50,272 nt of DNA, taken from positions 1 to 50,272 of the IMG/VR virus record IMGVR_UViG_3300038441_001406; one strand, 5' to 3'. Position numbers and translations under genes: made by a program. Below the pieces are notes generated by a model. The model searched no databases and was not told the origin of the DNA. It was given only the letters and a program-made list of their open reading frames with translations. Origin of the DNA: a virus. This document shows, one piece after another, positions 11,700 to 33,936 of the stretch; position 1 is the stretch's first letter, and every line of letters starts with the position of its first letter.

Positions 11700-12383
11700 A
11701 TGCCGATCGTGACGAACATCCTCGCTGAGCAGCCGGATGTGAACCGTTTCGGGGCCAACTGGCAGATCCAATTCCGTGACGCTAACGGCAACCTGCTCAA
11801 CATGGGCTCGTTCGATGAGATCGACTTTGGCGCCATCTCTTACAAAGAGATTTTCCAGAATGTCAAAACGATTCTGGCCACCCCGATTTTCTCCTGCCCA
11901 CTCGAGCGCACGCTGGGCGTTGACCAGACGGTCGTCGACCAGCCGATGAATCAGGCGACCGGAGCCACGATAGCGATTCTCGACGCTATTTACTTTTGGG
12001 AGCCGCGGGCCGAAGTAGTGAGCGTAGATTTTGAGCCGGACATTTTGACCGGCCACCTTGCGGTTAACGTGCAGTTGAAAATCAAGAACTTCGTTTATGG
12101 AACCACGGACAATTATCTACTCACGAACGCTTTCACACCGCCACCGGCGACCAGAGGAGGCTTGCCGCAGATGAATGTCCCAGTTCCAGGCCCGCCCGGA
12201 CCAGCCGGGCCAGAGGGACCAGAAGGGCCAGCAGGCGAACCGATCATTCCCGACCCGCTAACTCTGAACCAGTTGTTTATCGGGGCGAAGTCGCGGGTCA
12301 CAGCCTTGCCCAATGGTTGCATCATCGAAGTGCAAGACGGAACCGGCGCATGGATACCGCAACAGCAATACACCGAGTCATGA
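11700..12383 (+). CDS. Baseplate wedge protein (gpW/gp25-like) with collagen-like tail, 227 aa
   Basis: This is the conserved gp25-like wedge protein of contractile tails. Residues about 40-145 show the family pattern: KTILATPIFSCPLERTLGVD, where gp25 proteins have a (L)xTxxGxRPxxPxxG-like block, then a helix, then EPRAEVVSVDFEPD with the usual E-P-R. The start has GGAGG eight bases upstream. Unusually, about residues 160-180 are collagen-like Gly-X-Y triplets (PGPPGPAGPEGPEGPAGEP), followed by 45 residues of beta-like sequence. P2 gpW has no such extension. It overlaps the next gene by four bases (ATGA). Confidence 0.8.
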   Translation: MPIVTNILAEQPDVNRFGANWQIQFRDANGNLLNMGSFDEIDFGAISYKEIFQNVKTILATPIFSCPLERTLGVDQTVVDQPMNQATGATIAILDAIYFWEPRAEVVSVDFEPDILTGHLAVNVQLKIKNFVYGTTDNYLLTNAFTPPPATRGGLPQMNVPVPGPPGPAGPEGPEGPAGEPIIPDPLTLNQLFIGAKSRVTALPNGCIIEVQDGTGAWIPQQQYTES

Positions 12384-14239
12384 AAACTCTACTGATTACC
12401 CTGGTCGCTCTCTGGCTTTGGCTCTGTGGGGTTCAAGCTGACCAGACGATCTTTCAACCGACGACCTACGCTTTTCCAGCCAGCCTAACCATCCAGACCG
12501 GGGTCCCGCTGGCGGGCACATGGGACTTCACGGGCGCAACCGTAACCGGCCTGACAGTCGTAGGAACAGGAGATGTCGTCGGTCCAGCGAGTGCAGGCGA
12601 TAACCGAGTCGTTTTCTTTGATGGGACAACCGGCAAGCGAATCAAAGACAGCGGCCTTTCTCTAAGCGGGATCAACACCGGCGACCAGACCAGCGTAACC
12701 GGCAACGCCGGGACCGCGACGCTGCTCCAGAATGCGCGGACGATCAACGGAGTGAGCTTTAACGGCGGCGCGAATATCATTGTCCCGGCTGCTGGCTCAA
12801 CGCTCACTGATACCGTTCCTTTCACCAAGGGCGGCACCGGCCTGATTGCGCTCGGGCTGCCTCTGCAAGTTTTGCGGACCAATAGCGCAGCGACCGGGAT
12901 GGAATGGGGCACGGTAGGGAGCGGCAGCGGCATTGGTGACTTCGTCGGCCCGGGCAGCTCGACGGACAACGCCATCATCAGGTTTGATGGAACGACCGGC
13001 AAGACCGGCCAGAATAGCGGCATCACGATCGCTGACGGAGCTACCGGGACGTTGAGCGGGACGAATAGTGGGGATCAAACTTTCACATTAACCGGACCTG
13101 TAACGGGAACTGGCTCGGGTTCAATCCCCACCAGCATCACGGACGGATCGGTTGTGCTAGCCGACCTGACGAACATGGCGACAGGCAGCGTCTTCTATCG
13201 CAAGACGGCAGGGACCGGCCCACCCGAAGTGCAACCGCTCTCGGCACTCAAGCTCGATCTTGGCCTGACCGGCACGAATAGCGGCGACCAGATCAACATT
13301 ACGGGCAACGCAGGCACGGCCACGATCTTGCAGACGGCCCGGCTTATCAATGGCATCAGCTTCAACGGGTCAGCCAACATCACAATCCAAGTCCCGGTCT
13401 CTACCGGCATCACTGGACTTGGGACCAATGTCCCGGCGCTCTTAGCCACGGCCTCACCTGCGCTCAATTTCAACGAGTTCGCGCTTAATGTTAACCTCGG
13501 CAACCTGGCTTTCACTGACTCACTCGATTTCAGCGCCATCACAGGCTTAGTGCCGCCGAGCCAGATTGATCGCACCGTCGATGTTGTAGCTCAGACAGCC
13601 ATCGTCACGGTCCCGGCAGATGACCCAAAGAAAACAACGGCCAGTGGCGTCCTGACCACCTTGGCCTTTACCGGGACAAGCGGCTCGCCCGTAACGAAAG
13701 AATGGCGGGTTGACATTGATGTGACCGCGCCGAGCACGCTGAGCTTTACGGATGGGACCAACCCGCTGGCGGTGCGCCGACTCGGGAGCGCGGGCAGCGT
13801 CACTGCATCCCTGTTCACCAAAGGCTATCACGAACTGTCCCTGCGCTTGATCGGGACGGAGTTCATCATGGCGGATTCACTGCCAGCCAATGATCCGGTG
13901 ATTTGGGTCGCCATGTCCGATGAGGTAACGGCGATCACAACCGGGACGAACAAATTAACCTGCCGCGCCCCTTATGCGTTCACCGTGAGCGCGGTCCGAG
14001 CGAGCCTGAAAGTCGCCAGCATAAGCGGCATCCCAACGGTGGACATTAACGAAGCCGGGACTTCAATCCTTTCAACCAAGCTAACTATTGACGCTGCGGA
14101 AAAGACATCGAGAACTGCGGCCGTGCCTGCCGTCATTAGTGACACAGCCATAGCGGACGACGCGGAGATGACTTTCGACATAGATGTAGCGGGCAGTGGA
14201 GCAGTAGGATTGAAGGTATGCGTTTACGGTTATCGTTAG
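12380..14239 (+). CDS. Exported fibre-like repeat protein, 619 aa
   Basis: The start at ATG 12380 lies inside the gpW stop (ATGA). Residues 1-20 form a clear signal peptide (MKTLLITLVALWLWLCGVQA, cleavage after A20 likely). The rest is Gly/Thr/Ser/Asn-rich beta sequence with recurring units: DGTTGKRIKDSGLSLSG and DGTTGKTGQNSGITIADG; GTNSGDQ repeated; GNAGTATLLQNARTINGVS and GNAGTATILQTARLINGIS. Such repeats occur in phage tail-fibre shafts, yet fibres are not normally secreted. Residues about 420-619 form a non-repetitive C-terminal domain. The protein could be a tail appendage or an exported, surface-binding protein. Confidence 0.7.
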   Translation: MKTLLITLVALWLWLCGVQADQTIFQPTTYAFPASLTIQTGVPLAGTWDFTGATVTGLTVVGTGDVVGPASAGDNRVVFFDGTTGKRIKDSGLSLSGINTGDQTSVTGNAGTATLLQNARTINGVSFNGGANIIVPAAGSTLTDTVPFTKGGTGLIALGLPLQVLRTNSAATGMEWGTVGSGSGIGDFVGPGSSTDNAIIRFDGTTGKTGQNSGITIADGATGTLSGTNSGDQTFTLTGPVTGTGSGSIPTSITDGSVVLADLTNMATGSVFYRKTAGTGPPEVQPLSALKLDLGLTGTNSGDQINITGNAGTATILQTARLINGISFNGSANITIQVPVSTGITGLGTNVPALLATASPALNFNEFALNVNLGNLAFTDSLDFSAITGLVPPSQIDRTVDVVAQTAIVTVPADDPKKTTASGVLTTLAFTGTSGSPVTKEWRVDIDVTAPSTLSFTDGTNPLAVRRLGSAGSVTASLFTKGYHELSLRLIGTEFIMADSLPANDPVIWVAMSDEVTAITTGTNKLTCRAPYAFTVSAVRASLKVASISGIPTVDINEAGTSILSTKLTIDAAEKTSRTAAVPAVISDTAIADDAEMTFDIDVAGSGAVGLKVCVYGYR

Positions 14240-15720
14240 TCTCACTTGTATTGTCATTGGTTGCGTCCGCGCATGGCGTGACGCAGTTGCTTAACCCCTA
14301 TAGCCTGCAAGTTGTAGGCGGCACCCCGACCCCCACTCCGACCGCAACCCCAACGCCGACCCCGGCAGGACTCAAACCTTTGGTCGGCGGGATCATTCAC
14401 TTGATCGGCGGCTCGACGCCGTTCTGTGATAAGATCGACTCAGCTGTTTCCTTGGATTACCCGTGGGTCGATGGCTACCGCGGACGGACCACTTGGAAAG
14501 CGGTGCAGCCCAGCGCGCCGCCCGCAGAGTTGCAATGGGAGTGCATCGACCGAGCCTTGGCGACCTGCGCAGCTCACGGAAAATTCCTAACTCTATCCAT
14601 AGGGGCAGGAATCAACACGCCGGATTGGGTCTATGACAGTGCGCCAACCGTGCCGCGATTCCCTTGCGACAATGATACCGTCCCCGGCAACGAAAGTAAC
14701 ATGCCGTGGTCGGCCAATCTCAATTACCTGGCTAAATGGAAAACCTTCATCGCTGCCTTTGCGGCGCGCTACGATAACAACCCAACTCTGCGCGCCGTGT
14801 TCTTTACTGGCCAAGGGCAGCAGATTGTCGAGTATCACGTTACGGCCACAACGGAGAACTTCGACCGCTGGCGAGGATTAGCTGTAGCTGACGGCCGCTT
14901 CCCTGATGACACCGGCCCGCCTAACCTCAAGGCGGAAGATAAAGCCTTGCGCTTTGCCACCAAAGAAGTCATCGACGCTTACCAATTGGGTTTCCAAAAG
15001 ACGCCCCTTCATGCGACCGGTGGCAATCCATGGAGCGGCGGTCAAGCGGGGAATGACACAGAGGCTTACCAAGAGTCACTGAGCACTACGGCGCGGAGCG
15101 GCCTGTCCAACTCCACGTTGAAGGCTACCCTGACTCATACCAACATCCCGCAACTCAGGACCTATCCTTGGGGCAGGCAAGCCATCTTTTCCAGTGCGGA
15201 TCATGGCCGTTTTTACTCACCCCCGATTGACGATCGTGTTTACACGGATGCAACCCTTACAGTTGGCTCAACCACGATCACATTCCCCACCGGCGCAGAT
15301 GGATTCACTCCACCGGGGACGCGGGATGTGGGTCATGTCATAGCAGGCTCAGGTATCCCGAACACGCCGCCTTCGACCATCGTCGCGGTCAACAGCACGA
15401 CCAATATAACTATTTCAGCAGCGGTAACGAGCAATGCCGGGACAGGAAAGACGATCAATGTCGTGGACCAACCGCCGCCGCCGCAGTGCATTGACGATTA
15501 TTTGCGGAACGCTTTCGACACAGGCTGCCAATATACCGAGGTCTATGAGTTCGACATCGAAGGGAGCGGAGTCAATCCCACAATTAACAACGCCACCTTC
15601 ACAACACATCAGCCCCGTCTGAAAACCAACATACCAGGCGCGCTGCGCAAGGTAACACCGACGCCATCACCAGCAGCTAAAGGAAAGGCTAGTCCGAAGC
15701 CGAAAGGTAAAAAACCATGA
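14218..15720 (+). CDS. Exported glycosidase-like protein, 500 aa
   Basis: Residues 1-20 are a signal peptide (MRLRLSLVSLVLSLVASAHG). Residues about 35-48 are a Thr-Pro linker. Residues about 55-350 look like a TIM-barrel glycoside hydrolase: a WVDGYRGRTTWKAVQPS start, GKFLTLSIGAGINTPDWVYD with the typical strand-then-TPxW pattern of family 42-like barrels, and a later ATGGNPWSGG loop. The candidate acid residues cannot be assigned by eye. A beta-type insertion follows (about residues 340-420), and the C-terminus is Lys/Pro-rich ([13 protein letters not shown]). It overlaps the upstream gene by 22 bases and the next by four. A polysaccharide-cleaving role is inferred. Confidence 0.6.
   Translation: MRLRLSLVSLVLSLVASAHGVTQLLNPYSLQVVGGTPTPTPTATPTPTPAGLKPLVGGIIHLIGGSTPFCDKIDSAVSLDYPWVDGYRGRTTWKAVQPSAPPAELQWECIDRALATCAAHGKFLTLSIGAGINTPDWVYDSAPTVPRFPCDNDTVPGNESNMPWSANLNYLAKWKTFIAAFAARYDNNPTLRAVFFTGQGQQIVEYHVTATTENFDRWRGLAVADGRFPDDTGPPNLKAEDKALRFATKEVIDAYQLGFQKTPLHATGGNPWSGGQAGNDTEAYQESLSTTARSGLSNSTLKATLTHTNIPQLRTYPWGRQAIFSSADHGRFYSPPIDDRVYTDATLTVGSTTITFPTGADGFTPPGTRDVGHVIAGSGIPNTPPSTIVAVNSTTNITISAAVTSNAGTGKTINVVDQPPPPQCIDDYLRNAFDTGCQYTEVYEFDIEGSGVNPTINNATFTTHQPRLKTNIPGALRKVTPTPSPAAKGKASPKPKGKKP
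14321..14364 (+). repeat. Thr-Pro codon repeat
   Basis: Tandem ACC/CCG-type codons encode a short [12 protein letters not shown] linker after the signal peptide of the glycosidase-like protein. It is the first of four such linkers in the window. Confidence 0.85.
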
Positions 15721-18700
15721 ACCGACGCCTTCTCTTTTTTCTTCTGGTCATAGGCTTAAGCATCGGGCAGGTCTGGCCCCAAGCGCCACCGACGATCATC
15801 AACATCCCGGTCGTAGCGCACCCCGCGGGCGATCCTACCGCGACTCAGACAGGCGTTCTCTATGTGCCTGACCCAGTGTTCTTCCCCGGCCCTCGACCTT
15901 GTGTTGTGGGAACCAAAGCAGGACACTTCCAAGATGGCGGCCTCAACACTCTCACTACTTCGTTTACTGACTTAGCCAACCGCGGTTATCTCTGTCTGGC
16001 CTTTGATGTTCGGTTGCTCAATCCACCGGGGATAACTGGACAAACCACCTCTGGCAAATATCCAGAACAGACCGATGACATGAGGGCCGGGATTCTCTAT
16101 ATGCGTCCCGGCCACGAGATTCAAACCGTCCACGGTAAAGCTGTCAACGGATTCGTAGCTACGTTAGGCGGCAGCGGCAGCGCTCACCATGCCATCTACA
16201 AAGCAATGAATGGAGTAGTCGGTTTGGATAGGGCGGACGCGTGCATCGCTATGTCTCCGGATGTGGACTTCTCAGACCGAACGCCACCGCTTACCGATGC
16301 TGACCCGTTTGCTACAAAGAGTGCGGAGTATGCCAACGAACTCGTGACGAATTATCCGGCCCTCTTAGCCAAGTCACCGATCGCGCTCATCTCGAAAAGT
16401 AACAAACCTATTTGGCACGGCAACGGCGACAACGAAACCATGCCGTTGTCACAGCAGACGCGCTTCAAAAACGCAATCACAGCTGCGGGTGTCACTAACT
16501 ACACATGGAAGACGAACGGCGGCCCGGGCGTGGGCAACCAGCATTCCTTTGCCATGTGGCCCTTCATCAAAGTGGAAGCCATGAACTGGCTCGATGCCCG
16601 CGTAGCTGAGTTCAAAGAGACCCGGATTTGCGCTGACCTGTCTTACGCTGAGGTGAACAATGCAGTGAATGGGGTGGTGACAACGGGCCACTCGACTTGG
16701 ACAACGGTGGCACCAGATGGCGCAACGGTCATGCTTCCGGCCGGATCATCTACTTGGGCAGTTGGCTCCCTGCTCACGGTAACGAAAGACATCCAGATCA
16801 TTGGCGCAGGAATAACTAACACCATCATCAGTGGGAAAAATCAGATAATCAAACTCACTGGCAACAACACCAACTTGGTCTCGCTGCCCTACACACAGCG
16901 CCTAAGCGGACTGACGTTGACTTCGACGGCACCTTCAACCTTGGAACCTCTTATCATCAACGGGACCAATGTGATTATCGAAGGCGTTGGCGGCAGCTTA
17001 ACTGGAGGCTTCAGAGTCGACCACGTTTTATTCAATGGCGATTTCGCTAACCGGAAAACCATCAACATCCTGGGATGGAATGAGGGCGTGGTCGATCACT
17101 GCATTATTGATACAGATGTTTCCATCAGCGCGGGAGAACACGTTATCATCAACCATGCCACATCGCCGAGTGGAACGGGCGGCTATGGTGACTGGTCATG
17201 GGCTAACCCTTACACCTTGGCGGGTCCGCATCAGGTTTATTTTGAGGATTGTATCTTCAAACGCTCTCCCGGTGGCACTGATACGGAACAGTGGGCCGCA
17301 GCATTACCCGGTGGCGGTCGCTACACGGCTCGTCATGTCACCAGTTGGGGACAGTTAGGCGGTGGACATGGTGCCCGCGAAACAGGGGCAGTCAGAGGCA
17401 CCGGACAGCGGGCAGGAGAGGCATACAAGAATCTCTTTATTCGACAGATAGAAGCCCCTGCCCAAAGCAGTAATTTCAACGCTCCTCGTGCTGGTGAAGG
17501 TGTAACTTGGGGCAATCGTTGGATTCGCCCCGGTGCCACTGTGCAGTCCGGCATCCCACAAACCCCGCTAGCTATCTATGCTTACACTATCGGAGAATTT
17601 AGTGGGACTAACTGGGGTCCTGCCGATTCTCTGAACCCGTTCGATCAGAACCAGAAAGGAACTTTCACTTTTAATACTCATGGTCAGGACACCAACCCCA
17701 TCTACACGCACACTTATTCGCCGGATGCCTCTTACACTAATGGAACCGTGGTCGCAGGCGTGGATTCTATTTCCACCAATGGGGATGTTTACGCGCATGG
17801 CGTGGGTGGCTCTAACTGTAAGGGCACGGCTTGTGGCGAGCCGGGAGGTTTTGCTTCCTATGAGTATCTGTTAGGCACTGGTTTGGACATGCACGGTGTG
17901 ATGGATTATTGGAGAGGGTTTGTAATTCGCAACTTGAACACTCCAAGGTTGGCGCAAGAAAACATCAGTTGGGCCTACATTCTGAAATCGAATCCCACGA
18001 CTGGAATTTTGACTATCATACAAGCTAACGATCATACGGATTCGTCGATACATCACAGAATGAATCTTGTTCCCGGTGACCCATGGGAGATTAGAAAAGT
18101 CAAATCTTACTGGAACGTTCCCGGTGGTGGATCAATGGATACGTCTCTTGATAGTAATGCCTTTAATCCACCTCTATTGGTGAGTGGCAGTCCAAATCCT
18201 AGATGGACAAATGAGCCAGCCGTAGGCAATCATCAATGGGACAATAAATACACGATTACGACCGGCGCTCCCTTCGCACTTGTCGATCCTTATAACACTG
18301 ACACGGGGGATTATTCTTTAGCTATTCGCGGGACCACGAACGCTGCCAAGGTCGGTTATCCCTATGACCCTGCCACCCTTGCAGGCAGTGCCGGCCCGCC
18401 TGAAATCAGACCTGACACTCGTGTTGGGGCCGATGCGGAAGCGTGGTCATTGGTTCCTAGTTCATGGGCTTCTGGCACCGGAGCAAATTCTCTGGCCGGT
18501 TCCGCTTCTGTTTATGAGCCGGGAAGTGGCGGTTACAAATACCCGCATCCATTGGTTACAGTTCCAGCTGCAACACCAACACCAACACCAACGCCCACAC
18601 CTACTCCGACGCCCAGCCCGACACCTACACCTACGCCTCAGCCCCCGGGCTGTCCGCGCACTTGTGCTGACTTGTCTTTCGCCGAGGTCAATAATGCCGT

Positions 18701-21700
18701 CACTGGAGTTACGAGCACCGGCCACACGACTTGGACAACACCCGCGCCGGATGCCTGCCATGTTATCCTGCCCGCAGGGACAGCGGACTGGGGCACGAAC
18801 AGGCTTCTGGTTAACAACCTCATCACGATCAAAGGCGCGGGGATGCTCCTAACCAACATAGATACCTCGTTCAGTTTCAATGGCACACCGCCGACCTTGC
18901 GCGGGTCCTTCGGCTTCATCATCGCCAACGCTTCCAGCCCAACTGTCACTTGGGGATTGCAGGGCCTGACCATTCATCAGGTCACAGCGGTTAACGGTTC
19001 GCAGACATTATATGTGCAAGGCGGGAGCACAACAGCGAACCCGATCAAAGGAATCAGCGCAGGCTGGCGCATGAGTGACGTAAAGATTTACTCGCACAAC
19101 TTCGGTGGACCGCTCATGAGTTTCCGCGACACCATAGGGGTAAACGATCACTGCATCTTCGACAGTGGCGGAGACACAAGTCAGTGGGCCGACTTCCAGA
19201 ACGAGCACTGGGGCGGCCACCAGAACTCGCATGGGGCTTGGATGGAACCGATCCAATATGGCACCGACCGTTTTATGTATTTCGAGGATTGCCTCATGCT
19301 ATGGGGCCGGTGCGACTCGCACGAGGGCGGCATGTTCGTGGTCAGGCATTGCCGGTTTAAGAACGCGGCCGGAGCCACCGATCACGGGACCGAAAGTCAT
19401 CCCCACGGAGTGAGAGCGCAGGAAGTCTATAACTGCTGGTATACGGAGCACCCGGGCCCGGGCACGGAGAATCGGTCCGGCACCTGCATCATGCACGACA
19501 ACATTCAAGAGCCAGCGACAGGCATCACGAATCTTTTCCATCGGCGGCTGGTCAACCACCGCAACCGGATCATCAAGAACGCAGGCAGTCCGGACGGGAA
19601 CAATCCACACTGGAATAGAGCGCCCGCAAGCTTCACCGCGCCCGAAGATCAAAACTCAGAGTTAGCTAACCCGCTGGCTCTGCCGAGCATTACGAACGAG
19701 CCGATCAATGGCAACGTGTCGCCCGATCTTTTCACCGGCACAGTCACTAGCGCGATGCTGGTCAACACCACACTAATGACTGACACAGCCGCTAATGGCG
19801 GGGCAGGCTGGGCCGTTAACCAATTCCTCTGTGCGCCGCTCGACGGGACCGGATTGAATAGTTGCGGTTTCACTTACACCCTGGTCAACACGGACCATCC
19901 TGATATGTCAACGGCCTATATCGTGAGTAACACGGCCACGACTCTCACCGCTGGGATCAACGTCGGGGGCGGCAATGATCCGCCGATTAGCTTTGCCTTG
20001 GGCGAGCACTACGCCATTCGCAAGACTTTCGCGGCATTGGACCAGCCGGGAATGGGCATGATGGAGATGAGCAATGCGGATGCGGATGGCATCGGCGACG
20101 TATTTACATTGCCCAATAAGAACACCACGCCCGGGACCTGCACAATTCCCAATGTCAATAGTCCCGCAGGAGCCAAGGCTATCGGCTGGCAGAATCAGAA
20201 GCTTGATCCTTGCTACGGCTGGAACAACTGGAGCGGGCCGGGCTTCACTCAAGGGCGCGAGCTAAAATTCAAGAGCGAGCAAGGCCAGATAAAACAAGGC
20301 CGCGACTTCTTCAACACACAGAAGCCAGCCCCGGGCTACGGCTCATTGTTAGGCGGTTTGATTAGTGAGACCTATTCGCCCGGATATCCAGTCATCACTT
20401 CGCCAACCACAGCGCAACGGCAGGTTGGAGCCAAGGGCATCAGCGGGATTCTCGACAGCGAGATCCTGAATACGAATACAGTGACAGGCGTTGTCACAGG
20501 GTTCACTTACCCGCACCCTCTGGCGGGCGGGCCTGCGCCGACCCCGACCCCAACTCCAACACCTACCCCAAGTCCAACCCCGACGCCCACGCCGACTCCA
20601 ACTCCAACCCCGACGCCCACGCCGACCCCGACGGCGACTCCAACACCTACGCCCCCGCAATGCGTGCGCAATAGTGTTGATGTCTCTTACGCGGCAGTGA
20701 ACAACGCGGTTAATGGAGTGGTCTCAGGCAGCTACAACACTTGGACAACTCCAGCACCAGACGGTTGCACCATCGTCCTGCCGGCAGGCACAGCTACTTG
20801 GACAACCTCACTCATCGTAACTGCCAATCTAACAATAATGGGCCAGACCATGGTTACAGGAGCAGGCGGCCCCGTGGCTTCGGTTGTGGTTAACGATCAG
20901 ACCATCATTATCGACGAAGTCACTCCGCGGAAGCAAATCATCTACATGCAGGAGACAGACGAAAACGAGCCAGTGCGGATTACTGGGATCACCTTTCGCA
21001 AAGGCGTCGTCCAAACCGGCCAATCCTTCGACGGCTTAGTTAGGTTTTCCGGTAACTGTAAGAAGGCCAGAGTCGATCATTGCTTCTTTGACACATTGTA
21101 TGGCGTCGGCGTGAGCTTCTTTGGCTGGATGTATGGCGTAGTCGATCACTGTTATTTCAAGGAGTTGTTAGCCCATCCGGTTATCGTGGAGCACCAGACT
21201 TGGAATGGCGCTGACTGGGGCCATGGTTCTTGGGCCGATGATCCTTGGTGGGGCAGTGACAAATTCATCTTCATCGAAGATTGCACGGCCACAGCGCAGA
21301 AAGCGATAGGCGATGGCTTCGATTCTTTTGAGGGCGGCCGCTATGTCATTAGGCATTGTGACCTGACAAGCTTGCGAGTTGGCAACCATGGCACTGAAGG
21401 CCAAGGTCGCAGTGGGAAGCAAATTGAGTGTTACGAAAACGCTTTCCACTTACGGACCGATGCCACCAATAAAACAAGCGGCCAGCTGCGCGGCGGCTCG
21501 ATGCTGCAATGGGGCAACACATTCGATCCAGCATGGGTCAAGGGCACAACCTTGCAGGTCTATCGGCCTTATAAGCCTTCGCCTCACTACGGCCCGTCTG
21601 ATGGCCTGAATCTCTGGGATAAGAACCATTGGAACCCGGCCGCGAGCGTTGATTATTACGCGATTGGGACGCACACCGGAGCGGTAGATGCAGCTAACCT

Positions 21701-22586
21701 AACAGACAGCAACCCTTCCAAAACATGGTGGGATAACGACGGCACGCCGCGCACTGGTCCATGGACGATCAATCGATGGTTCCAGCAAGGGGTAAATTAC
21801 ATGGTGCGAAATGTGACGAAAGAAGTCCCGGGCGATGCGGCAGAGAATCATGTTTGGTCTGTGGCCAACTCCGGCGATACAGTCACTGTTTCAACCACAA
21901 GCTTCAATGGCCAGCACGTTCAGTTTGATCCGGGTGACGTTTACCAAATTTGGCGCGTGGACCAAGTTTTGGATTCACCGGGCACGGGCAGGAGTGATCT
22001 TATGCAAGGTCAAGGCACTTGGACGCCAACCGGACCGGACGGCGGCATCACTCCTTATGCCGACCCGCATCAAGTGCTGGAGCCTTCTTATTGTTGGAAT
22101 CAAAGTTTCTGCTACGAAGCGAGTGGCACCAATCTCTTAGAAGGCCGCGACTATTTTAACAACATACCCAAACCGGGTTACACGCCGTTCCTTTACCCGC
22201 ATTACTTGGCTTCGAGCGGTTCAGGCCAGCAGATCGACGTCCCAATCAGCCATGACTTCGGCAACGTGATTATTGGCACCTCAGTGATCTATGACATTCC
22301 GGTTAGGAATGGGGGCAACTCTACAACCACAGTGAGCGGCGTCAGCTATCCCCCGCCTGCCTATAGCGGCCCCACTGACGGCTTCATTATTCCCGGCGAT
22401 CTGGAAGCAACCATCACCAAGACCATGACTTTCAATCCTCTGACTGCCGGCACTTTCGATGGGGATGTTATCTTTTTTAGTGACGGTGTCGGGAACGGCA
22501 CCATGCACGTTACCGGGGTCGGTGTAGCCCCGCCCGCACCGCCCGCCGAGTTGAATGTTATCCCGATGATTATACTTCGACGATGA
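15717..22586 (+). CDS. Giant exported esterase plus triple beta-helix protein, 2289 aa
   Basis: Signal peptide at residues 1-22 ([20 protein letters not shown]). Residues about 25-300 form an alpha/beta-hydrolase esterase domain with the nucleophile elbow G151-G-S153-G-S (last Gly replaced by Ser), an Asp in GNGDNETMP and a His in GNQHSFAMW. Then come three related right-handed beta-helix modules starting near residues 305, 983 and 1652. Each opens with a (D)(L/V)S(Y/F)AxVNNAVxGV block, carries VDHC or NDHC turns and a (F/I)EDC turn, and ends YPHPL or YPHYL. Modules 1-2 and 2-3 are joined by Thr-Pro linkers. Residues about 2165-2280 form an Ig-like domain of the SPD-2/Hydin kind ([20 protein letters not shown]). 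It is probably a polysaccharide lyase/esterase or adhesin; which is not decided by sequence. Confidence 0.75.
18571..18645 (+). repeat. Thr-Pro codon repeat, linker between beta-helix modules 1 and 2
   Basis: About 75 bases of degenerate six-base units (ACNCCN) encode a (TP)n linker. Similar linkers at 20536 and 48766 share near-identical units, which makes them possible sites of recombination between modules. Confidence 0.85.
20536..20658 (+). repeat. Thr-Pro codon repeat, linker between beta-helix modules 2 and 3
   Basis: About 120 bases of ACNCCN units encode the longest (TP)n linker of the window. Within it a longer unit (CCAACCCCGACGCCCACGCC) occurs twice, so slippage or unequal exchange has probably acted here. 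Confidence 0.85.
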
Positions 22587-22924
22587 ACTCGAGTGCTCCC
22601 AAGAACGGCAGCAAAACACAATGGAGGTTTGATCTTGGAAAACAGATTCTATCGTTTGCTGTCGGCGTCATTGTGTCCGCGTATGTCATCGGTGGAGCCC
22701 GGCAGCGTGTCCATGACTTGGGTGTCTGGCGTGACACAGTAGCTCCGAAGATTGAGCGCATGGATACGGTTGGGACGTTATCATTCGAGCACTGGAAAAA
22801 CGCCCACGACAAAGAGAGTGATAACTGGAAAGCGGCTCACGCCCAAGAGCAGGCGCGGAATGATGAACGCCTGAAAGAATTAGAGCAGGAAGTGAAACAA
22901 TTACAAAGGAACCCACACCCATGA
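22583..22924 (+). CDS. Single-span membrane protein with coiled coil (spanin- or holin-like), 113 aa
   Basis: ATG 22583 lies in the stop of the giant gene (ATGA). One hydrophobic segment is seen at about residues 20-40 (ILSFAVGVIVSAYVIGGA), followed by a long charged helix rich in Glu/Lys/Gln (residues 60-110, ending LKELEQEVKQLQ). The arrangement of an N-terminal membrane span and coiled coil is that of inner-membrane spanins and also of some tail-associated membrane proteins. No Lys/Cys lipoprotein partner and no endolysin is seen nearby, so the lysis role is only a possibility. The stop overlaps gpJ (ATGA at 22921). Confidence 0.6.
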   Translation: MNSSAPKNGSKTQWRFDLGKQILSFAVGVIVSAYVIGGARQRVHDLGVWRDTVAPKIERMDTVGTLSFEHWKNAHDKESDNWKAAHAQEQARNDERLKELEQEVKQLQRNPHP

Positions 22925-24117
22925 GCAATGGCTTAACACCGCCACCAGAGTTCGGTGTCGCCCTCGTCCCCGAGGTTGACTTCGCCGTCAAAGACCCCGC
23001 GGTCATACAGAGTGAAGTGCTGGCGAATTACGAGGCCGAGTTTCTCCGGCTGACCGGAATCGTGAAGAACTTGGCCCCGGGCGATCCGGTTAGGCTGCAT
23101 CTACTGGTGGTCTGCAACTGGCTGAGCCACCAGCGCACCATTATTGACTTCACCGGGAAACAGAATCTGTTGAAGTATGCGAGTGGCGATTTCCTTGATA
23201 ACCTTGGGGCGCTCTATGGTGAGCGAGCCTTGCGTTTACCGGCTGCGGCTGCCGTCACGACCTTGCGTTTCACGCTGCCGATTGCGCTGGCCTTCGACGC
23301 AGTCATTCCGAGCGGCACGCAAGCACAGGCACCAAACTCGATAATCTTTGCCACGACCGAAGATGGCATCCTACCCGCTGGCGTGCTCACAGTCGACGTT
23401 CCAGCCGAAGCCACACTCGAAGGCTCAATCGGCAACGACCTGGCTCCGGGCCAGATCAATAGTCTAGTCAACTGGAACCAGCCTTTCTCGGTCACGGTCT
23501 CCAATACGACGACCACGAGCGGCGGCGCAGACGAGGAGAGCGACGACCAATATCGTTACCGGATCTGGCTGGCACCGGAAAGCTTCTCGACCTGCGGCCC
23601 AAAGGAAGCCTATGAGTTTTGGGCACTCTCAGCCCATCCTGACATCATCCAGTGCGTCGTCTATAGCGCCCCGGCGATCGCGGGCGAGGTCTGGCTCTAC
23701 CCGCTCCTGCGCAATGGCGAGATACCTAGTCCCGAGATTCAAGCTTTGGTCTTGGCCGCTTGCAGCGCAGAGGACCGGCGACCAATCACGGATTACGTCA
23801 GCGTGAAAACGCCGAGCCTGGTCAATTACTCGCTCAACATGACTTACTACATCCTGCGCACGAACGAGGTCCTCTTTACCACGATCAAGGCTGCGGTCGA
23901 GCAAGCGGTAGCGGACTGGATCTTGTGGGAGCGCTCCTTTATCTCGCGCGATCTCAACGGCGACGAGCTGCGCAAGCGTTGTCTGGCTGCGGGCGCGAAA
24001 CGCATTGTCATCACGACACCCAATCCAAGTTTTGTTGTGCGGGCCTACAACGAGTTGGCGGTCCACACCGGGACTCCTGCGCCCATCATCACCTTTGGAG
24101 GTTTCGAGGATGAGTAA
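22921..24117 (+). CDS. Baseplate protein J-like, 398 aa
   Basis: This is the gpJ wedge component of contractile tails. The family pattern is visible: a helical start with LVPEVDFAVKDP, the YASGDFLDNLGALYGERALR block at residues about 80-100 (gpJ proteins have G-x-x-LDxLGxxxGxxR here), a beta domain with PSGTQ, a second GSIGNDLAPGQINSL stretch, the GGADEESDDQYRYRI block, and a C-terminal helix plus TTPNPSFVV. The 398-residue length is usual for the longer members. It overlaps gpI by eight bases. In P2 gpJ follows gpW; here 10.5 kb of exported-enzyme genes lie between them. Confidence 0.87.
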   Translation: MSNGLTPPPEFGVALVPEVDFAVKDPAVIQSEVLANYEAEFLRLTGIVKNLAPGDPVRLHLLVVCNWLSHQRTIIDFTGKQNLLKYASGDFLDNLGALYGERALRLPAAAAVTTLRFTLPIALAFDAVIPSGTQAQAPNSIIFATTEDGILPAGVLTVDVPAEATLEGSIGNDLAPGQINSLVNWNQPFSVTVSNTTTTSGGADEESDDQYRYRIWLAPESFSTCGPKEAYEFWALSAHPDIIQCVVYSAPAIAGEVWLYPLLRNGEIPSPEIQALVLAACSAEDRRPITDYVSVKTPSLVNYSLNMTYYILRTNEVLFTTIKAAVEQAVADWILWERSFISRDLNGDELRKRCLAAGAKRIVITTPNPSFVVRAYNELAVHTGTPAPIITFGGFEDE

Positions 24118-24733: not shown

Positions 24734-26449
24734 ATGAGCCTAAATCAACAAGTCTTCACGAACGCGGGCATCAACATGCTCGGACAAGCCAATGCAGGCA
24801 GCCTGCTGACGATTACAAAGATTGTCGTCGGTGCCGGGAGCGCAGGCAGCAACGCGGACCTTTATCCTTTGACCGCTCTCATCACTTTCAAAAACAATGT
24901 CACGATCACGCGCAAGACAGACTTGGGCGGGGGCAAACTCATTGTGTCTGGTGCGCTGGTCGAAGCACTGATTGCGGGCGCGCCTTACTCTTTGCGGGAG
25001 CTGGGAATCATGGCCAAGATCGGGACCGGGACGGAGCAGCTTTATACCGTGGCCAATGTTTTCGCCGACGTGCCCGACACGATCACCCCGGGCGGCACGA
25101 GCACGCACGCCTTTGATATCACCGTCGTAATCGACCAAGCGTCCTCGATCTCAGTCACGATTGGCAATCCCAACACAGTTGATTGCCAGAACATCCCAAC
25201 GACGCCTGCGACGGGGCCGGGACTCTACGCCCAACGCGTGGGCAATGTCTTTCAGTTCAAGCGCCTGGTGGCGGGGCCGGGCATCGCTTTCACGGAAGCA
25301 AGCGACCGAGTCACAGTCAGCGTGAAAGTAATAACCGTTGACTTGAATCTCTATGTCCCAGCCAGCCATCCCGACGCGCCCGGGCCGGAAGTGGCCTTCG
25401 CTACCCTGCAAGCGGCCTTCGATTACTTGGCGGAAATCCGCATCCCATTCGATAAGAAAGTCACAATCCATATTTACCGGGGCGTGTTCACCACCACCAG
25501 CGGGATCATTTGTTCGCATCCTAACTCCGCCCGAATCTTTGTCGTGGGCGACAACCCGATTATCAAAACCGTTTCTGCGATCACGCACTTCGACGCCACC
25601 CATAAGAAAGTCACGGTCAATAACACAACCGATCTGGCTGTAGATCATCATGTCACGATCGTGGATTCACCCGCAGGCTTTGCCGGTGGCTGCAAGATCA
25701 CCGCGATCGCGGGCAATGTCCTCACGGTCACAATCGAGAAGCGCGACTCTCGGGTAGCTTATACGACGCCGGCGGGATCCGGCTCGCGTCTCATCCGTTA
25801 CCCGACAGTCCTGGTCTGCGATGATCCGCCGAAAAACAATACGGCGCTCTGGTGCCCGTTCGGGCTGGGTGCGCTGCAATGGGTAACCATGCTGGGCGGC
25901 CGCGAATCTCTCTATGCGGAGAACTTCGTCTGGATCATTGGCTGTCTCTTTCGAGATAACACGACCGGCCTTTTCCTTTATCAATGCTCGGCCTTGCTGC
26001 AAGATGAAGTCACCTTCACGCAGTGTGACGTCGCGATTGACGGCGACGAGCTGGAAGCGCAGAAGCTTTACATCAATGGTTGCGAGCGCGGCATTCAAAC
26101 CAAGCACTCCAAGGTGGGCAATTACAAAGCAGGCTTATCCGTGGGTTTTTACGGTTACTTCTCGCACTGCATCTTTGCCATCAACATTTCGCTCAACGCG
26201 GAGTTGCAGGGCGGCAATCTGAAAGCATCGAGCAACGAAAGTCTAATCAACTGCGGGTTGGGGTCCACCGCTACGATCAACCATCCAGCTGGACCGCAGA
26301 CCACCTTCGACAACATGCCCGCGGTGACGGCGCAGGCCGCGATGAACAGTTTCATTCTCTGGTATAGGAACGGCGGGCCAGTGCCAATCTGCCAGCCACC
26401 AGCCGAGACGGTCGGCATCTTCGAATCACTCATCCACGTAGAACCATGA
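24734..26449 (+). CDS. Tail fibre with collar-type N-terminus and beta-helix, 571 aa
   Basis: Residues about 1-150 match the phage tail-collar fibre N-terminal domain: MSLNQQVFTNAGINMLGQA, then KIVVGAG, then ITRKTDLGGGKLIVSGAL and YSLRELGIMAK. This part attaches fibres to the baseplate after gpI, as P2 gpH does. Residues about 195-540 look like a right-handed beta-helix: many short strand turns with Asn/Gly/Asp corners, YAENFVWIIGCLFRDN, SHCIFAINISLNAELQGGN. It is therefore a receptor-binding or depolymerase-type tailspike. Unlike the exported proteins at 12-22 kb it has no signal peptide, which is normal for a virion fibre. The stop codon TGA overlaps hairpin copy 4. Confidence 0.8.
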   Translation: MSLNQQVFTNAGINMLGQANAGSLLTITKIVVGAGSAGSNADLYPLTALITFKNNVTITRKTDLGGGKLIVSGALVEALIAGAPYSLRELGIMAKIGTGTEQLYTVANVFADVPDTITPGGTSTHAFDITVVIDQASSISVTIGNPNTVDCQNIPTTPATGPGLYAQRVGNVFQFKRLVAGPGIAFTEASDRVTVSVKVITVDLNLYVPASHPDAPGPEVAFATLQAAFDYLAEIRIPFDKKVTIHIYRGVFTTTSGIICSHPNSARIFVVGDNPIIKTVSAITHFDATHKKVTVNNTTDLAVDHHVTIVDSPAGFAGGCKITAIAGNVLTVTIEKRDSRVAYTTPAGSGSRLIRYPTVLVCDDPPKNNTALWCPFGLGALQWVTMLGGRESLYAENFVWIIGCLFRDNTTGLFLYQCSALLQDEVTFTQCDVAIDGDELEAQKLYINGCERGIQTKHSKVGNYKAGLSVGFYGYFSHCIFAINISLNAELQGGNLKASSNESLINCGLGSTATINHPAGPQTTFDNMPAVTAQAAMNSFILWYRNGGPVPICQPPAETVGIFESLIHVEP

Positions 26450-26495: not shown

Positions 26496-27278
26496 ATGGC
26501 AGAAGTAGAGGAAATCAAAGAGGAAACATTGGGAGTCAATCCGCCGGTCGATCTCATCGAGTTCGGCCAAGCTAAAGATGGGACCACTCTGCATTGGGCG
26601 GTCAAAGAACCAGACAGAGACCAGTTCGCGCCACCTTGGTATTGCGTCCTCGCTGTGCACGGCGGCGGCTTCACTGGCGGGACACCAGGCACGCCGATTG
26701 GTGTCGCTGGGCCGGATCTCGCAGCGGCAGGCTTTATCGCTTTCTCGCCCGAGTATCGCTTAGCGCCGCCCGGAAAGATCGCAGGGCAGACATCGCTCGG
26801 CCGCTATCCGGACCAGACGGATGACTTGGCCGTGGCCATTGATGCCGCGACCAAAGACGATCGAGTGAAGGGCAATCCGCAAATGGTCGGCGGCAGCGGC
26901 GGAGCTTATCAGACAGCGTTTTGGGCAGCGAAGGGCGTGCTCACGGGAGTAGCTCTCTCGCCTTGCTCGCAACTCGATGATGCGATTGATCGGCGGAACT
27001 TCCCAACCTTTGCGGCTAAGTGCGACAACTACGCTGCGGGCCAATTGAGGGAAGCCTCGCCCAACACCTATGTGAATGAGGCTTCCAGACCGCTCCTGGT
27101 CGTGGCTTATTCAAGTGACCAGATGCCGCCCCGGCAATACAGCCGACTCGTGGAAGCCCTAGCTGCTTTCAACATCGAGCACGGCGCCATCCTGCTGCGA
27201 GGCAAAGGGCACTCATGGGATGCGTGGGTAAAGGTGAAAGCACAGGCCATCGCTTTTCTGCAAGAGCATAAAGCATAA
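26496..27278 (+). CDS. Alpha/beta hydrolase (carbohydrate-esterase-like), 260 aa
   Basis: ATG 26496 has GAAAGGAAAG upstream. The protein carries the hallmarks of an alpha/beta-hydrolase esterase: an oxyanion HGGGF motif at about residue 55, YRLAPPGK after it, the nucleophile elbow G132-G-S134-G-G136, an acidic site in YSSDQMPP and the catalytic His in GKGHSWDAW near the C-terminus. No signal peptide is present, so it acts in the cytoplasm or as a virion part. It shares the motifs G(R/K)YP(D/E)QTDD, GGSG, D-x-MP and GHSW/QHSF with the N-terminal domain of the giant exported protein, so the two are paralogues. A substrate such as acetylated polysaccharide is inferred. Confidence 0.75.
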   Translation: MAEVEEIKEETLGVNPPVDLIEFGQAKDGTTLHWAVKEPDRDQFAPPWYCVLAVHGGGFTGGTPGTPIGVAGPDLAAAGFIAFSPEYRLAPPGKIAGQTSLGRYPDQTDDLAVAIDAATKDDRVKGNPQMVGGSGGAYQTAFWAAKGVLTGVALSPCSQLDDAIDRRNFPTFAAKCDNYAAGQLREASPNTYVNEASRPLLVVAYSSDQMPPRQYSRLVEALAAFNIEHGAILLRGKGHSWDAWVKVKAQAIAFLQEHKA

Positions 27279-27987: not shown

Positions 27988-28886
27988 CAGCGCCGACTAT
28001 TCGGCTGGCTGCGACTTGCGCGCTCATGGGGCACAACAACGAAGCGAACATCACTGCGCGTTATCCTTTTCACCGCAACAACATGGAAGGCCCGACGGTG
28101 CGCCTCGCTCATGTGCCGGGGGCGCAGGGCGACAACTGTTTGCTTGGTCAGCGCGGGACCAAAAAACTTCCAGCAACCAGTGCGCCGGCGCTGCTCGTCA
28201 GTTATTTTTATCTGGAAGACTGGTTAAAGAACCGGCACCGCTACATTATCCGCGACTGGGTGCTGGACTCGGGCGCTTTTTCCGCGCGGGAAAAAAACAT
28301 TGAAATCAACCTGACCGATTACATCGAGACCTGTAAACGACTCATCGACGAGGAAGATCAGTTAACAGAAATCTTCGCTCTCGATGTCATTGGCGACTGG
28401 AAGAAGTCGCTCTCCAACACAAAACGGATGTGGAAGGCAGGCATCCCGGCCATCCCCTGCTATCACCTGGCTGAGCCATGGGATCATCTCCTCGGCCTCG
28501 CCAAGGATTATCCGAAGATCGCCATTGGTGGCATGTCGCGGCTGCGCGGCAAAGCCATCACGACTTACATCGAGCAGTGTTTCGCCCGCGTCTGGCCCAA
28601 GCCGGTGCACGGTTTTGCCGTCGGTGGCCGCGATCTCATCATGCGTTTTCCGTGGCACTCGGTGGACGCGACAAATTGGGAATTAGGCCCGTGTGGATTC
28701 GGACGCTGGAATGCCTTTGGGCAGTTGAGTGTTCGGGGCTCGAAACAAAATCTTCGCTCCGAGATAGAATTTTATTTGGCTCTCGAACGGGAAGCGCGCT
28801 CCCGATGGTCAAAAGAAATGGCGAAGCTTGACGGGCTTCCATCGTTGCGCGAACAACGAGACGCGCTATGTCCTCGACGATCCTGA
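27948..28886 (+). CDS. dpdA: DpdA-type DNA 7-deazaguanine transglycosylase, 312 aa
   Basis: DpdA is a DNA-acting relative of tRNA-guanine transglycosylase that swaps guanine for preQ0. Key features seen: VLDSGAFSA with Asp107 (TGT enzymes have DSGGFQ here), FALDVIGDW, a KIAIGGMSR turn, HGFAVGG, and HSVDATNW with Asp240, where phage DpdA proteins have SVD(S/A)T-x-W, the likely nucleophile region. About 310 residues is usual for phage DpdA and shorter than tRNA enzymes. ATG 27948 is chosen; ATG 28026 or 28083 are also possible because the first 45 residues look poorly conserved. It overlaps the ParB-like and QueC genes. Neighbouring queC, queD, queE and folE genes supply the substrate. Confidence 0.8.
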   Translation: MPKVSRESRSAKIAAPTIRLAATCALMGHNNEANITARYPFHRNNMEGPTVRLAHVPGAQGDNCLLGQRGTKKLPATSAPALLVSYFYLEDWLKNRHRYIIRDWVLDSGAFSAREKNIEINLTDYIETCKRLIDEEDQLTEIFALDVIGDWKKSLSNTKRMWKAGIPAIPCYHLAEPWDHLLGLAKDYPKIAIGGMSRLRGKAITTYIEQCFARVWPKPVHGFAVGGRDLIMRFPWHSVDATNWELGPCGFGRWNAFGQLSVRGSKQNLRSEIEFYLALEREARSRWSKEMAKLDGLPSLREQRDALCPRRS

Positions 28887-29536
28887 TTTATAGCGGTGGT
28901 TTGGATAGCACAGTCCTGCTTTACCGGCTGCTCTTCTTGAAAGAAGATGTTCGCGCTCTGAGCATCAACTATGGGCAACGGCACTTGAAAGAGATCGCAG
29001 CGGCCCGCATGATCGCGGTCAGAGCTGGCGTGACGCACAAGGTAGCGGATCTCTCCAGTGTGCGACAATTTCTGCGTGGGAGTAGCCAGACTGATCCAAG
29101 CGTGGAGGTGCCACACGGGCATTACACGGACGAGTCGATGAAACAGACCGTGGTCCCAAACCGAAACATGCTCATGCTTTCAGTGGCGCTCGCGTGGGCT
29201 ATCAGCGAAAAAGCAGACTCTATCACTTACGCGGGGCACTCCGGCGACCGCGCCATTTATCCTGACTGCCGGGAAGAGTTTGCCAGTGCCTTCAACACCG
29301 CAGCCCTTTTGGCCGACTGGCATCAAGTCAGACTGGAACGACCTTTCATTGATATGACCAAGGCTGAGATCGTGACCATGGGCAATGAGCTTGATGTGCC
29401 CTTCGGTCTGACCTGGAGTTGCTACGAAGGGCGTGCCCAGCATTGCGGGCGCTGCGGCACCTGCGTCGAACGACAGGAAGCTTTCCGAGAGGCGAACGTA
29501 AAAGACCCAACCGAGTATGACCTGATATGTTGTTGA
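28868..29536 (+). CDS. queC: QueC, preQ0 synthase
   Basis: QueC converts 7-carboxy-7-deazaguanine to preQ0 using ATP and ammonia. Seen: the PP-loop SGGLDST at residues 9-15, SINYGQRH at about 36-43, PNRNMLMLSVALAWA, a YAGHSGDRAIYPDCR block, and the zinc site C185, C193, C196, C199 (CYEGRAQHCGRCGTC). The 222-residue length is typical. The gene overlaps dpdA by 19 bases and the P-loop gene by 10, so the operon is tightly coupled. There is no amidotransferase-type QueC extension, so the base made should be preQ0. Confidence 0.93.
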   Translation: MSSTILIYSGGLDSTVLLYRLLFLKEDVRALSINYGQRHLKEIAAARMIAVRAGVTHKVADLSSVRQFLRGSSQTDPSVEVPHGHYTDESMKQTVVPNRNMLMLSVALAWAISEKADSITYAGHSGDRAIYPDCREEFASAFNTAALLADWHQVRLERPFIDMTKAEIVTMGNELDVPFGLTWSCYEGRAQHCGRCGTCVERQEAFREANVKDPTEYDLICC

Positions 29537-30156
29537 TTACCGGGATGCAACGCTGCGGCACTTCGCTGACGGCCGACTTTGTTCGGGCTTGCGGCTATCC
29601 AATGACCGGACCCAACGATGCAGTGGGCAAATATGAGGATCCGGAAATCACGATGGCGTATCGCTACATCCTGAAAGATGAAATGTTTCCTTGGGACGGC
29701 TACCCGTTTTACATCCCGAAGCATCTGAGTCAGCCGTTGCACGACATCGAGCGGCCCGCAGCCAAGTTCGCCTACTTGATGATGGACCCCGTCTTCATGC
29801 AAATCTGGATTGAGCACCGCGGTCACAAACACGATCGCATGTTGATCCTGGCCCGGGAGACGGAAAAGATCGTGCGGAGCAAAGCCAACACTCCAGAACG
29901 TGCCCGCCTGTTCGCTCTTGACTCGCACCGGCTGCGCTTGACCGCAGAGCAACTGAAACAGAACTGGTTCGACTCCTTCATGCTTCTCCTCAATAGCGGC
30001 ATCCCTTATCGCGTCCTCAAGTTTCCAATCTTCCTCGACGACTACGATGCAGTCCGCGGGGCGCTGCAAGAGTTCGGCGGGCTGGAAAAGATTCCCAATG
30101 ACGCGGCGCTCTGGCGGACTATGATCGACCGCAAGAAAGTGACGGCGGAAACATGA
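29527..30156 (+). CDS. Sulfotransferase-like P-loop protein inside the preQ0 operon, 209 aa
   Basis: The N-terminus ITGMQRCGTSLTADFV has the P-loop style of PAPS-dependent sulfotransferases (R-x-GT-S/T), and MLILARETEKIVRSKAN at about residues 101-117 resembles their 3'-phosphate-binding segment with Arg and a later Ser. The rest is helical with a KFPIFLDD segment. Length is short for a sulfotransferase (usually about 250-300). It overlaps queC by 10 bases and queD by four, so it is part of the modification operon. It might sulfate or phosphorylate a precursor or a modified base (inference). A related nucleotide kinase cannot be excluded. Confidence 0.6.
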   Translation: MLLITGMQRCGTSLTADFVRACGYPMTGPNDAVGKYEDPEITMAYRYILKDEMFPWDGYPFYIPKHLSQPLHDIERPAAKFAYLMMDPVFMQIWIEHRGHKHDRMLILARETEKIVRSKANTPERARLFALDSHRLRLTAEQLKQNWFDSFMLLLNSGIPYRVLKFPIFLDDYDAVRGALQEFGGLEKIPNDAALWRTMIDRKKVTAET

Positions 30157-30587
30157 TCACCTGCGCCAAACGTTACGAGAACTTCCCCTGCGCGCATCGA
30201 GCGCCCGATCATGACGGCCACTGCAAATTGATTCACGGCCACAACTGGGCCTTCGATATTGTTTTCGCAGCAGAGCGGCGGGACCAGAATGGATTTGTCG
30301 TCGACTTCGGCAAGCTCGGACCGCTGAAAGAAAAGCTGACGGAGTATTTCGACCACACCTTACTCTTGAATGAGAACGATCCGTTAAGTGCCTCAATCGA
30401 CTTGTATCTGACGGCGCACAATATCGGGAATGTCGTGCTCGTGCTTGATTGCTCTTGCGAAGGGATCGCCGAGCTTGTCTTCAATCTGGCCGACGACATG
30501 GTGCGCGGTCTGACAAGAGGGCGGGCCGGGGTCGTGCGGGTCACGGCGCACGAGGACACAAAGAACTCTGCCACCTATCGGCCATGA
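30153..30587 (+). CDS. queD: QueD, 6-carboxytetrahydropterin synthase
   Basis: QueD makes 6-carboxy-5,6,7,8-tetrahydropterin from dihydroneopterin triphosphate, the second step to preQ0. Seen: zinc His15, His28 and His30 (CAHRAPDHDGHCKLIHGHNW, residues 13-32), the catalytic Cys24 four residues before HGHNW, VVDFGKLGPL for the next strand, and an FDHTLLLNENDP segment with the usual DH. At 144 residues it is a little longer than the common 120. A short insertion follows DCSCEGIAELV. It overlaps the P-loop gene by four bases and queE by four. Confidence 0.92.
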   Translation: MITCAKRYENFPCAHRAPDHDGHCKLIHGHNWAFDIVFAAERRDQNGFVVDFGKLGPLKEKLTEYFDHTLLLNENDPLSASIDLYLTAHNIGNVVLVLDCSCEGIAELVFNLADDMVRGLTRGRAGVVRVTAHEDTKNSATYRP

Positions 30588-33898: not shown

Positions 33899-33936
33899 GC
33901 ATGATGCGAAGCAGATAACCAGAAAGAACACAAACC

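Follow-up and report, generated by a model that had tools for sequence, protein, structure and literature searches.

The window analysed here, the whole 50,272-base virus record IMGVR_UViG_3300038441_001406, contains a contractile-type tail cassette in which the gene for a protein of 2289 aa, hereafter the giant, lies between the genes for gp25 and baseplate J. The data lean, somewhat beyond an even balance, towards the giant being a late, Sec-exported, multi-catalytic depolymerase of exopolysaccharide (EPS) or capsule, which would be made from the tail operon and act outside the virion. A secreted depolymerase made during infection had been proposed in an initial annotation, and it is the best reading in silico, given the clustering of export signals in this slot across the phage clade and the location of the two known bacterial relatives of its beta-helix module in EPS loci. 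Novelty lies chiefly in the slot and the apparently exported proteins within it rather than in the triple module.

Signal-like starts cluster in a variable slot between gp25 and baseplate J

Baseplate J was used as a query and 54 loci (numbered with the prefix L) were fetched. The gap between gp25 and J was 1.9-9.4 kb in the intact slots of 15 de-duplicated clade loci and 10.5 kb in the window; in the 26 distant loci with both genes the distance was -31 to +36 bases in all. The genes overlap in Vibrio phage X29, Pararheinheimera phage KLER1-1 and Acinetobacter phage HFM1, which resemble the window in sheath (41-45% identical), baseplate J (42-45%) and conserved tail gene order but have no slot and no exported cargo. 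A variable slot between gp25 and J is a trait of this soil-myophage clade.

Signal peptides were called by a crude home-made rule, not SignalP, with cut-offs slightly different between scans, and the counts are of proteins, not independent events. Near-identical loci (L015, L021, L024, L026, L027 and L030) were removed before signals were counted in slots, and for the enrichment count open reading frames (ORFs) below 150 aa and those with no start inside the locus were removed as well. Across the de-duplicated clade loci and the window, signal-like starts were found in 12 of 52 slot ORFs versus 6 of 168 other ORFs (Fisher p 6e-5); two of the latter six are window ORFs at its far end, and two sit in apparent tape-measure genes. 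The controls yielded 4/158 ORFs from distant relatives (20 of the 26 distant loci, six apparent near-copies being left out) and 1/53 in three cultured relatives, this one being an annotated i-spanin. In the window, each of the three large slot genes has a signal-like start. Within the slot the signal tracks protein family, being present in 4/4 fibre-like proteins with one C-terminal type and 0/9 with another. The N-terminus of the window's fibre-like protein just past the signal is common to seven sequences (the window and L010, L025, L020, L018, L004 and L032), and the signal sequence itself varies.

Five successive slot ORFs at L032:635-9219 were flagged as signal-peptide-like, including a 1105-aa Laminin_G_3 protein and a beta-helix/fn3 protein. 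The signal of the fibre-like protein at L025:7338 ends in LLVAC, by eye lipobox-like, therefore some slot proteins may be lipoproteins. Further signal-peptide-like ORFs lie far from the tail genes at window positions 45228-45920 and 48357-49211, the second with a weak fn3 match and Thr-Pro/Thr-Ala-type repeats near 48764. A search of the open-licence PMC literature on signal peptides of phage tail and depolymerase proteins, its scope being open papers only, found no exported tail-operon depolymerase.

Architecture of the giant protein

The coordinates and the length of 2289 residues in the initial annotation were exact, and the signal peptide and esterase that it placed ahead of three beta-helix modules were supported in silico (Table 1). 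Three copies of its VNNAV block are present, at residues 313, 991 and 1661; the positions that it gave (305, 983 and 1652) were 8-9 too low. DHC turns were located at residues 460, 1144, 1787 and 1810, module ends at 942 and 1598 (YPHPL) and 2160 (YPHYL), and the two Thr-Pro linkers at 953-974 and 1609-1646. The combination of parts, described there as known from no phage protein, was found nowhere else in the relatives searches. Overlooked at that stage were the location between gp25 and baseplate J and a weak HYDIN/ASH domain (Pfam PF22544 E 5e-4, 20.6 bits, below the cut-off of 25.5; NCBIfam choice_anch_D E 0.0023).

The linkers are of low complexity, which would suit an assembly artefact in which unrelated genes were fused at the Thr-Pro repeats. 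However, no 31-mer occurs twice in the window, the longest exact repeat in the giant is 24 nt (within linker 2), exact matches between the two linkers do not exceed 11 bases and the frame is open throughout. A chimeric assembly was rejected on this repeat evidence as highly improbable.

The esterase-like domain is 29% identical (E 1e-14) to a second alpha/beta hydrolase encoded downstream, which exceeds the Pfam gathering score for BD-FAE (28.1 versus 26.8 bits); the domain of the giant itself gave no Pfam hit to BD-FAE or Abhydrolase_3. Its fold was matched by Foldseek at E values down to 5e-8, but from a weak model (predicted local distance difference test, pLDDT, 46). The putative catalytic triad, placed by alignment only, comprises Ser153 in GGSGS, D238 or E240 as the acid, and His276, with Ser153 and His276 retained. 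Contig L022 carries a relative in the corresponding slot (33% identity), and no close viral relative was found with the esterase domain as query.

Fold and family of the beta-helix modules

The three modules are homologous, with best BLASTP E values of 1e-18 (modules 1 and 2), 5e-32 (1 and 3) and 3e-31 (2 and 3) at 25-29% identity. Structure prediction, a check recommended in the initial annotation, was run for module 3 from a nine-row alignment and gave a right-handed beta-helix at modest confidence (mean pLDDT 58, predicted template modelling score 0.68), with pLDDT about 70-80 across much of residues 1-280. In VIA-align the model matched PfbA, polygalacturonases, alginate lyases, RbmB, chondroitinase B and tailspikes with Z 20-24, while Foldseek gave 7 viral matches and no match in the PDB at E <= 0.001. 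R135, D160, H161, E204, R229, H241 and R275 are invariant in 9/9 modules, and the hallmarks of the family are the N-cap, a G(V/L).DH turn and a YPHPL-type end.

A Pfam scan of nine modules found no family at E <= 0.1, and a PDB sequence search at E 10 returned 3 matches and no PL6 chain. NCBIfam beta_helix_1 was matched below cut-off in three of the six family proteins scanned, and PHROGs matches to the giant were confined to low-complexity linker. The libraries searched contain no description of the module family, and no model from Pfam, NCBIfam or PHROG matched it above its cut-off.

The VIA list is headed by PfbA, an adhesin and surface protein of pneumococci (Z 23.6). Together with the HYDIN/ASH-like end, the apparently exported fibre-like neighbours and the lipobox-like motif seen by eye in L025, this would fit a protein exported mainly to bind, whether as an adhesin or decoy, secreted or kept at the surface, that hides receptors from superinfecting phages, or as a glue between virions and matrix. 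Such a role is improbable, since the invariant charged residues over nine modules, the attached hydrolase with its Ser and His kept, and the relatives in EPS loci favour catalysis.

Relatives of the module in phages and bacteria

Outside the window the module family was found in six uncultured phage contigs, of which L032 is a member of the clade and L065, L066, L077, L078 and L080 have different neighbour genes. The relatives in L032, L065, L066 (via an upstream segment) and L080 passed the signal rule; those in L077 and L078 failed it, and both have a hydrophobic run directly ahead of the module. Among ORFs of module carriers outside the clade, 7/46 were signal-like, among them neighbours of fibre size in L077 and L080. 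The module relative at L066:9752-11803 has a hydrophobic, membrane-like C-terminal stretch, and the same contig has portal and major head genes.

No match to the module family was found among 50,697 phage records, and no close viral relative was detected for the whole giant or for the three-module profile. Nothing was returned by tblastn against cultured phages with the giant, the L078, L080 and L032 modules and the second hydrolase as queries, or by a plasmid search with module 3 and the L078 module. Scanning a genome collection with baseplate J gave 7 contigs at <=47% identity and identified no host; the module was present in 0/7 of these genomes.

Of 297 bacterial genomes from one phylum, two contained a relative of the module, and both relatives start signal-like by eye; two scans over coinciding genome lists gave this same pair and are counted once. 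The giant's own gene does not lie within an EPS locus, whereas both bacterial relatives do: L073 encodes Wzy_C, glycosyltransferases, a polysaccharide deacetylase and Polysacc_synt_3, and L074 encodes Wzy_C and an asparagine synthase. These loci also bear on whether the giant is an auxiliary metabolic gene product, exported so that polysaccharide of plants or soil can be broken down as a carbon source during infection. The joint occurrence of esterase, GH42-like and pectate-lyase-like parts would agree with that role, but it is distinctly improbable given that the gene is inside a baseplate operon with overlapping starts, that membrane-protein and wall-hydrolase genes adjoin in relatives, and that the bacterial loci are for EPS synthesis, not utilisation.

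Comparison with known systems

PL6 lyases, in which a catalytic Lys/Arg and a Ca2+ site lie in the beta-helix groove, share the beta-helix with module 3 (chondroitinase B 1ofm and 1dbg, alginate lyase 5gkq; Foldseek probability 1.00 for 1dbg), and 1ofm has the highest sequence identity (17%) among the 50 VIA matches listed. The modules have no sequence-level match to a PL6 family model or structure.

RbmB of Vibrio cholerae is described as a secreted Vibrio polysaccharide (VPS) lyase, an exported beta-helix enzyme encoded in a matrix-polysaccharide gene cluster (PMC11637428). RbmB (PDB 9ozl, 9ozd) resembles the module as a right-handed beta-helix (VIA Z 21.3 over 272 residues) and in its predicted signal peptide and in a cluster setting like that of the module's bacterial relatives. 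It differs from the giant in being a single-domain bacterial protein of characterised activity, at 13-15% identity in the VIA structural alignments. WceF of Pantoea stewartii is described as an exported EPS-cluster enzyme with a tailspike-like beta-helix that acts on the cell's own EPS (PMC7949094). It parallels the proposed role of the giant as an exported beta-helix EPS enzyme, but it is a bacterial native trimer with a Tat signal and is not among the fold matches listed.

Secretion or a place in the virion

Phage depolymerases are mainly known as virion tailspikes. The main rival to secretion is that the giant is a virion tailspike or accessory fibre, its hydrophobic start being unused for export or a relic of a captured bacterial secreted protein; this we regard as unlikely. 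The gene belongs to a baseplate region, the usual place for virion parts, and tailspike depolymerases (Sf6, HK620, K2-2 TSP) resemble the giant in both fold and tail-gene neighbourhood, the Sf6 tailspike being the best Foldseek PDB match of module 3. Other clade slots keep signal-less fibres and, in L018 (6226-7530), a Pect-lyase tailspike-like protein. Tailspike depolymerases are virion parts, whereas the giant has a signal-peptide-like start and no known tail-anchoring domain in Pfam, PHROGs or NCBIfam, signal peptide and esterase filling its N-terminus. The enrichment of signal-like starts in the slot and their retention by fibre-like proteins in seven sequences also speak against a virion part, as does the ordinary signal-less fibre gene downstream of J, which has relatives in 26 of the 54 J loci.

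Besides its baseplate setting and the tailspike fold, several observations weigh against an exported depolymerase. The signal calls come from a home-made rule and the hydrophobic starts could be membrane anchors; the -3 residue of the giant is poor if cleavage follows A23; and a signal-peptide gene is present in a minority of the intact de-duplicated slots (5/15, excluding the window and leaving out the 155-aa membrane-protein relative of L017, which the rule also flagged). The esterase is without the HGGG oxyanion motif of its paralogue and has TKAGH instead. The modules themselves match no Pfam, PHROG or PDB sequence family, and none was found in 398 genomes of a second phylum, a screen that had no known positive and is uninformative alone.

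Origin of the three modules

The initial annotation had explained the triplication, from the matching module ends, by unequal exchange between the linkers. This is not supported: the end YPHP(L/F), YPHAL or YPHYL occurs in 9/9 aligned phage modules, the bacterial relatives end in YPHPV and YPHPL, and the module bodies are strongly diverged. In protein sequence the window modules agree at 62-69% over the N-cap (first 45 residues) and at 22-25% over the remainder; the bodies are 24-32% identical to the L032 and L065 modules and so stand no nearer one another than they do to modules of other phages. At identical N-cap residues the codons agreed in 10/29, 12/27 and 9/26 cases, against 9.9, 9.1 and 8.4 expected from codon usage. 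Synonymous codons are thus saturated, and the cap would have been kept by protein-level selection or be old. In a full-length module tree the three window modules grouped together with support of 90/91, and without the N-cap they did so in 0% of 200 bootstrap trees; both trees are weak, with long branches. Recent triplication by linker exchange was rejected on the body divergence, the saturated codons and the dissimilar linkers. No recent DNA exchange is visible between the N-caps at the nucleotide level and, judged from the low body identity, codon saturation, linker mismatch and cap-dependent grouping, the window modules are old and strongly diverged with a conserved cap.

A model for the slot and its products

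The ATGA start/stop overlaps link gp25 with the fibre-like gene, the GH42-like gene with the giant (15717-15720), the giant with the small membrane protein (22583-22586) and the latter with J. Because of these links, translation of the slot genes as a single late operon is probable; a promoter and terminator scan performed no better than shuffles. The giant would thus be co-translated with virion genes, and its signal peptide would carry it through the inner membrane of the infected cell. The esterase-like domain may then strip acyl groups from the host matrix polysaccharide, and the three predicted beta-helices may bind and cut different linkages or substrate variants, kept apart by the presumably stiff Thr-Pro linkers; the HYDIN/ASH-like domain could, at a guess, be a tether or spacer. 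Loosening of the slime that coats the dying cell and nearby cells would let progeny leave and reach new hosts, with the giant acting together with the usual occupants of the slot, a wall hydrolase and a membrane protein.

More tentatively, and with the balance slightly against it, the clade may have made the gp25-J junction a hypervariable slot for Sec-exported fibre-like proteins and multi-domain EPS enzymes, produced along with the virion yet sent out of the cell, adding a matrix-opening step to release and drawing on an undescribed beta-helix family; unrelated uncultured phages would have assembled similar sets independently, next to their structural genes. If secretion is correct, some phages would target the host matrix by way of the infected cell as well as the particle, which would account for the fibre-like genes with signal peptides seen in uncultured soil phages. 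Undescribed in the searched libraries and with bacterial relatives in EPS loci, the modules are a concrete source of candidate matrix enzymes.

Neighbouring genes and other features of the window

By Pfam and PHROG the tail cassette comprises sheath, tape measure, a LysM-type hub, a gpD-like hub protein, gp25, baseplate J, a gpI gene (assigned by position only) and a fibre. For the GH42-like gene the Pfam E value was 0.0085 (below cut-off) and that of a PDB beta-galactosidase 0.0055; a search for its viral relatives found none.

Table 1. Positions of the giant, its domains and the genes of the slot and its flanks in the window
Feature	Position	Strand	Basis
gp25-like baseplate wedge, left slot border	11700..12383	+	Pfam GPW_gp25 E 2e-4, below cut-off; BLAST relatives in loci
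Fibre-like protein, signal peptide MKTLLITLVALWLWLCGVQA followed by DQT	12380..14239	+	PHROG tail-fibre hits; start from ATGA overlap with gp25
Protein with signal peptide and Thr-Pro linker, weak GH42/beta-galactosidase similarity	14218..15720	+	Pfam, PDB
Giant protein, 2289 aa, single unbroken ORF, ATG start	15717..22586	+	Frame open throughout
Sec-like signal peptide, MNRR and 13-residue hydrophobic core, cleavage after G17 or A23	15717..15785	+	Crude rule
Alpha/beta-hydrolase (esterase-like) domain, residues 24-300	15786..16616	+	Paralogue alignment, fold match
Beta-helix module 1, N-cap and body, end KYPHPLVT	16623..18560	+	Module homology
Thr-Pro linker 1	18573..18638	+	Sequence
Beta-helix module 2, end TYPHPLAG	18657..20528	+	Module homology
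Thr-Pro linker 2	20541..20654	+	Sequence
Beta-helix module 3, end LYPHYLAS	20667..22214	+	Homology and structure prediction
HYDIN/ASH (choice-of-anchor D-like) domain, weak, residues 2174-2261	22236..22499	+	Pfam PF22544, NCBIfam
Small protein with one membrane segment	22583..22924	+	Relatives in other slots, often adjoining wall-hydrolase gene
Baseplate J, right slot border	22921..24117	+	Pfam Baseplate_J E 2e-54
Ordinary tail fibre, no signal peptide, outside slot, downstream of J	24734..26449	+	PHROG 7037
Second alpha/beta hydrolase (BD-FAE), no signal peptide, distant paralogue of the giant's esterase domain	26496..27278	+	Pfam, BLAST

Slots of the clade hold fibre-like genes, the small membrane protein and a wall-hydrolase-like gene (Amidase_3 and/or GH75-like, by homology to L010). 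The last lies just upstream of J in 14/15 intact slots and is present in 18 of 22 de-duplicated clade loci. It had no tblastn match in the window, where an endolysin was not found either. The idea that the giant compensates for loss of this hydrolase was not adopted because L032 carries both a beta-helix gene and the hydrolase.

A 28-nt palindrome, AAGCTTAATCGAAAAA(T/C)CGATTAAGCTT, occurs with small variants in nine window copies, mostly intergenic (5, 4068, 11156, 26449, 32119, 37456, 41693, 44622 and 49792). No copy lies between 11156 and 26449, and the operon of the giant is therefore framed by two copies. The consensus was found in no other locus, the sole match, L002, being the window itself. 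A leader, AACCAGAAAGA(A/C), is repeated shortly ahead of start codons at 33913, 34296, 36434, 38305, 43695 and 46372, and may serve as a ribosome site or as part of an early promoter. Genes at 28868-32126 resemble, by eye, QueC, QueD, QueE and FolE of the 7-deazaguanine pathway and suggest that the phage DNA may be modified.

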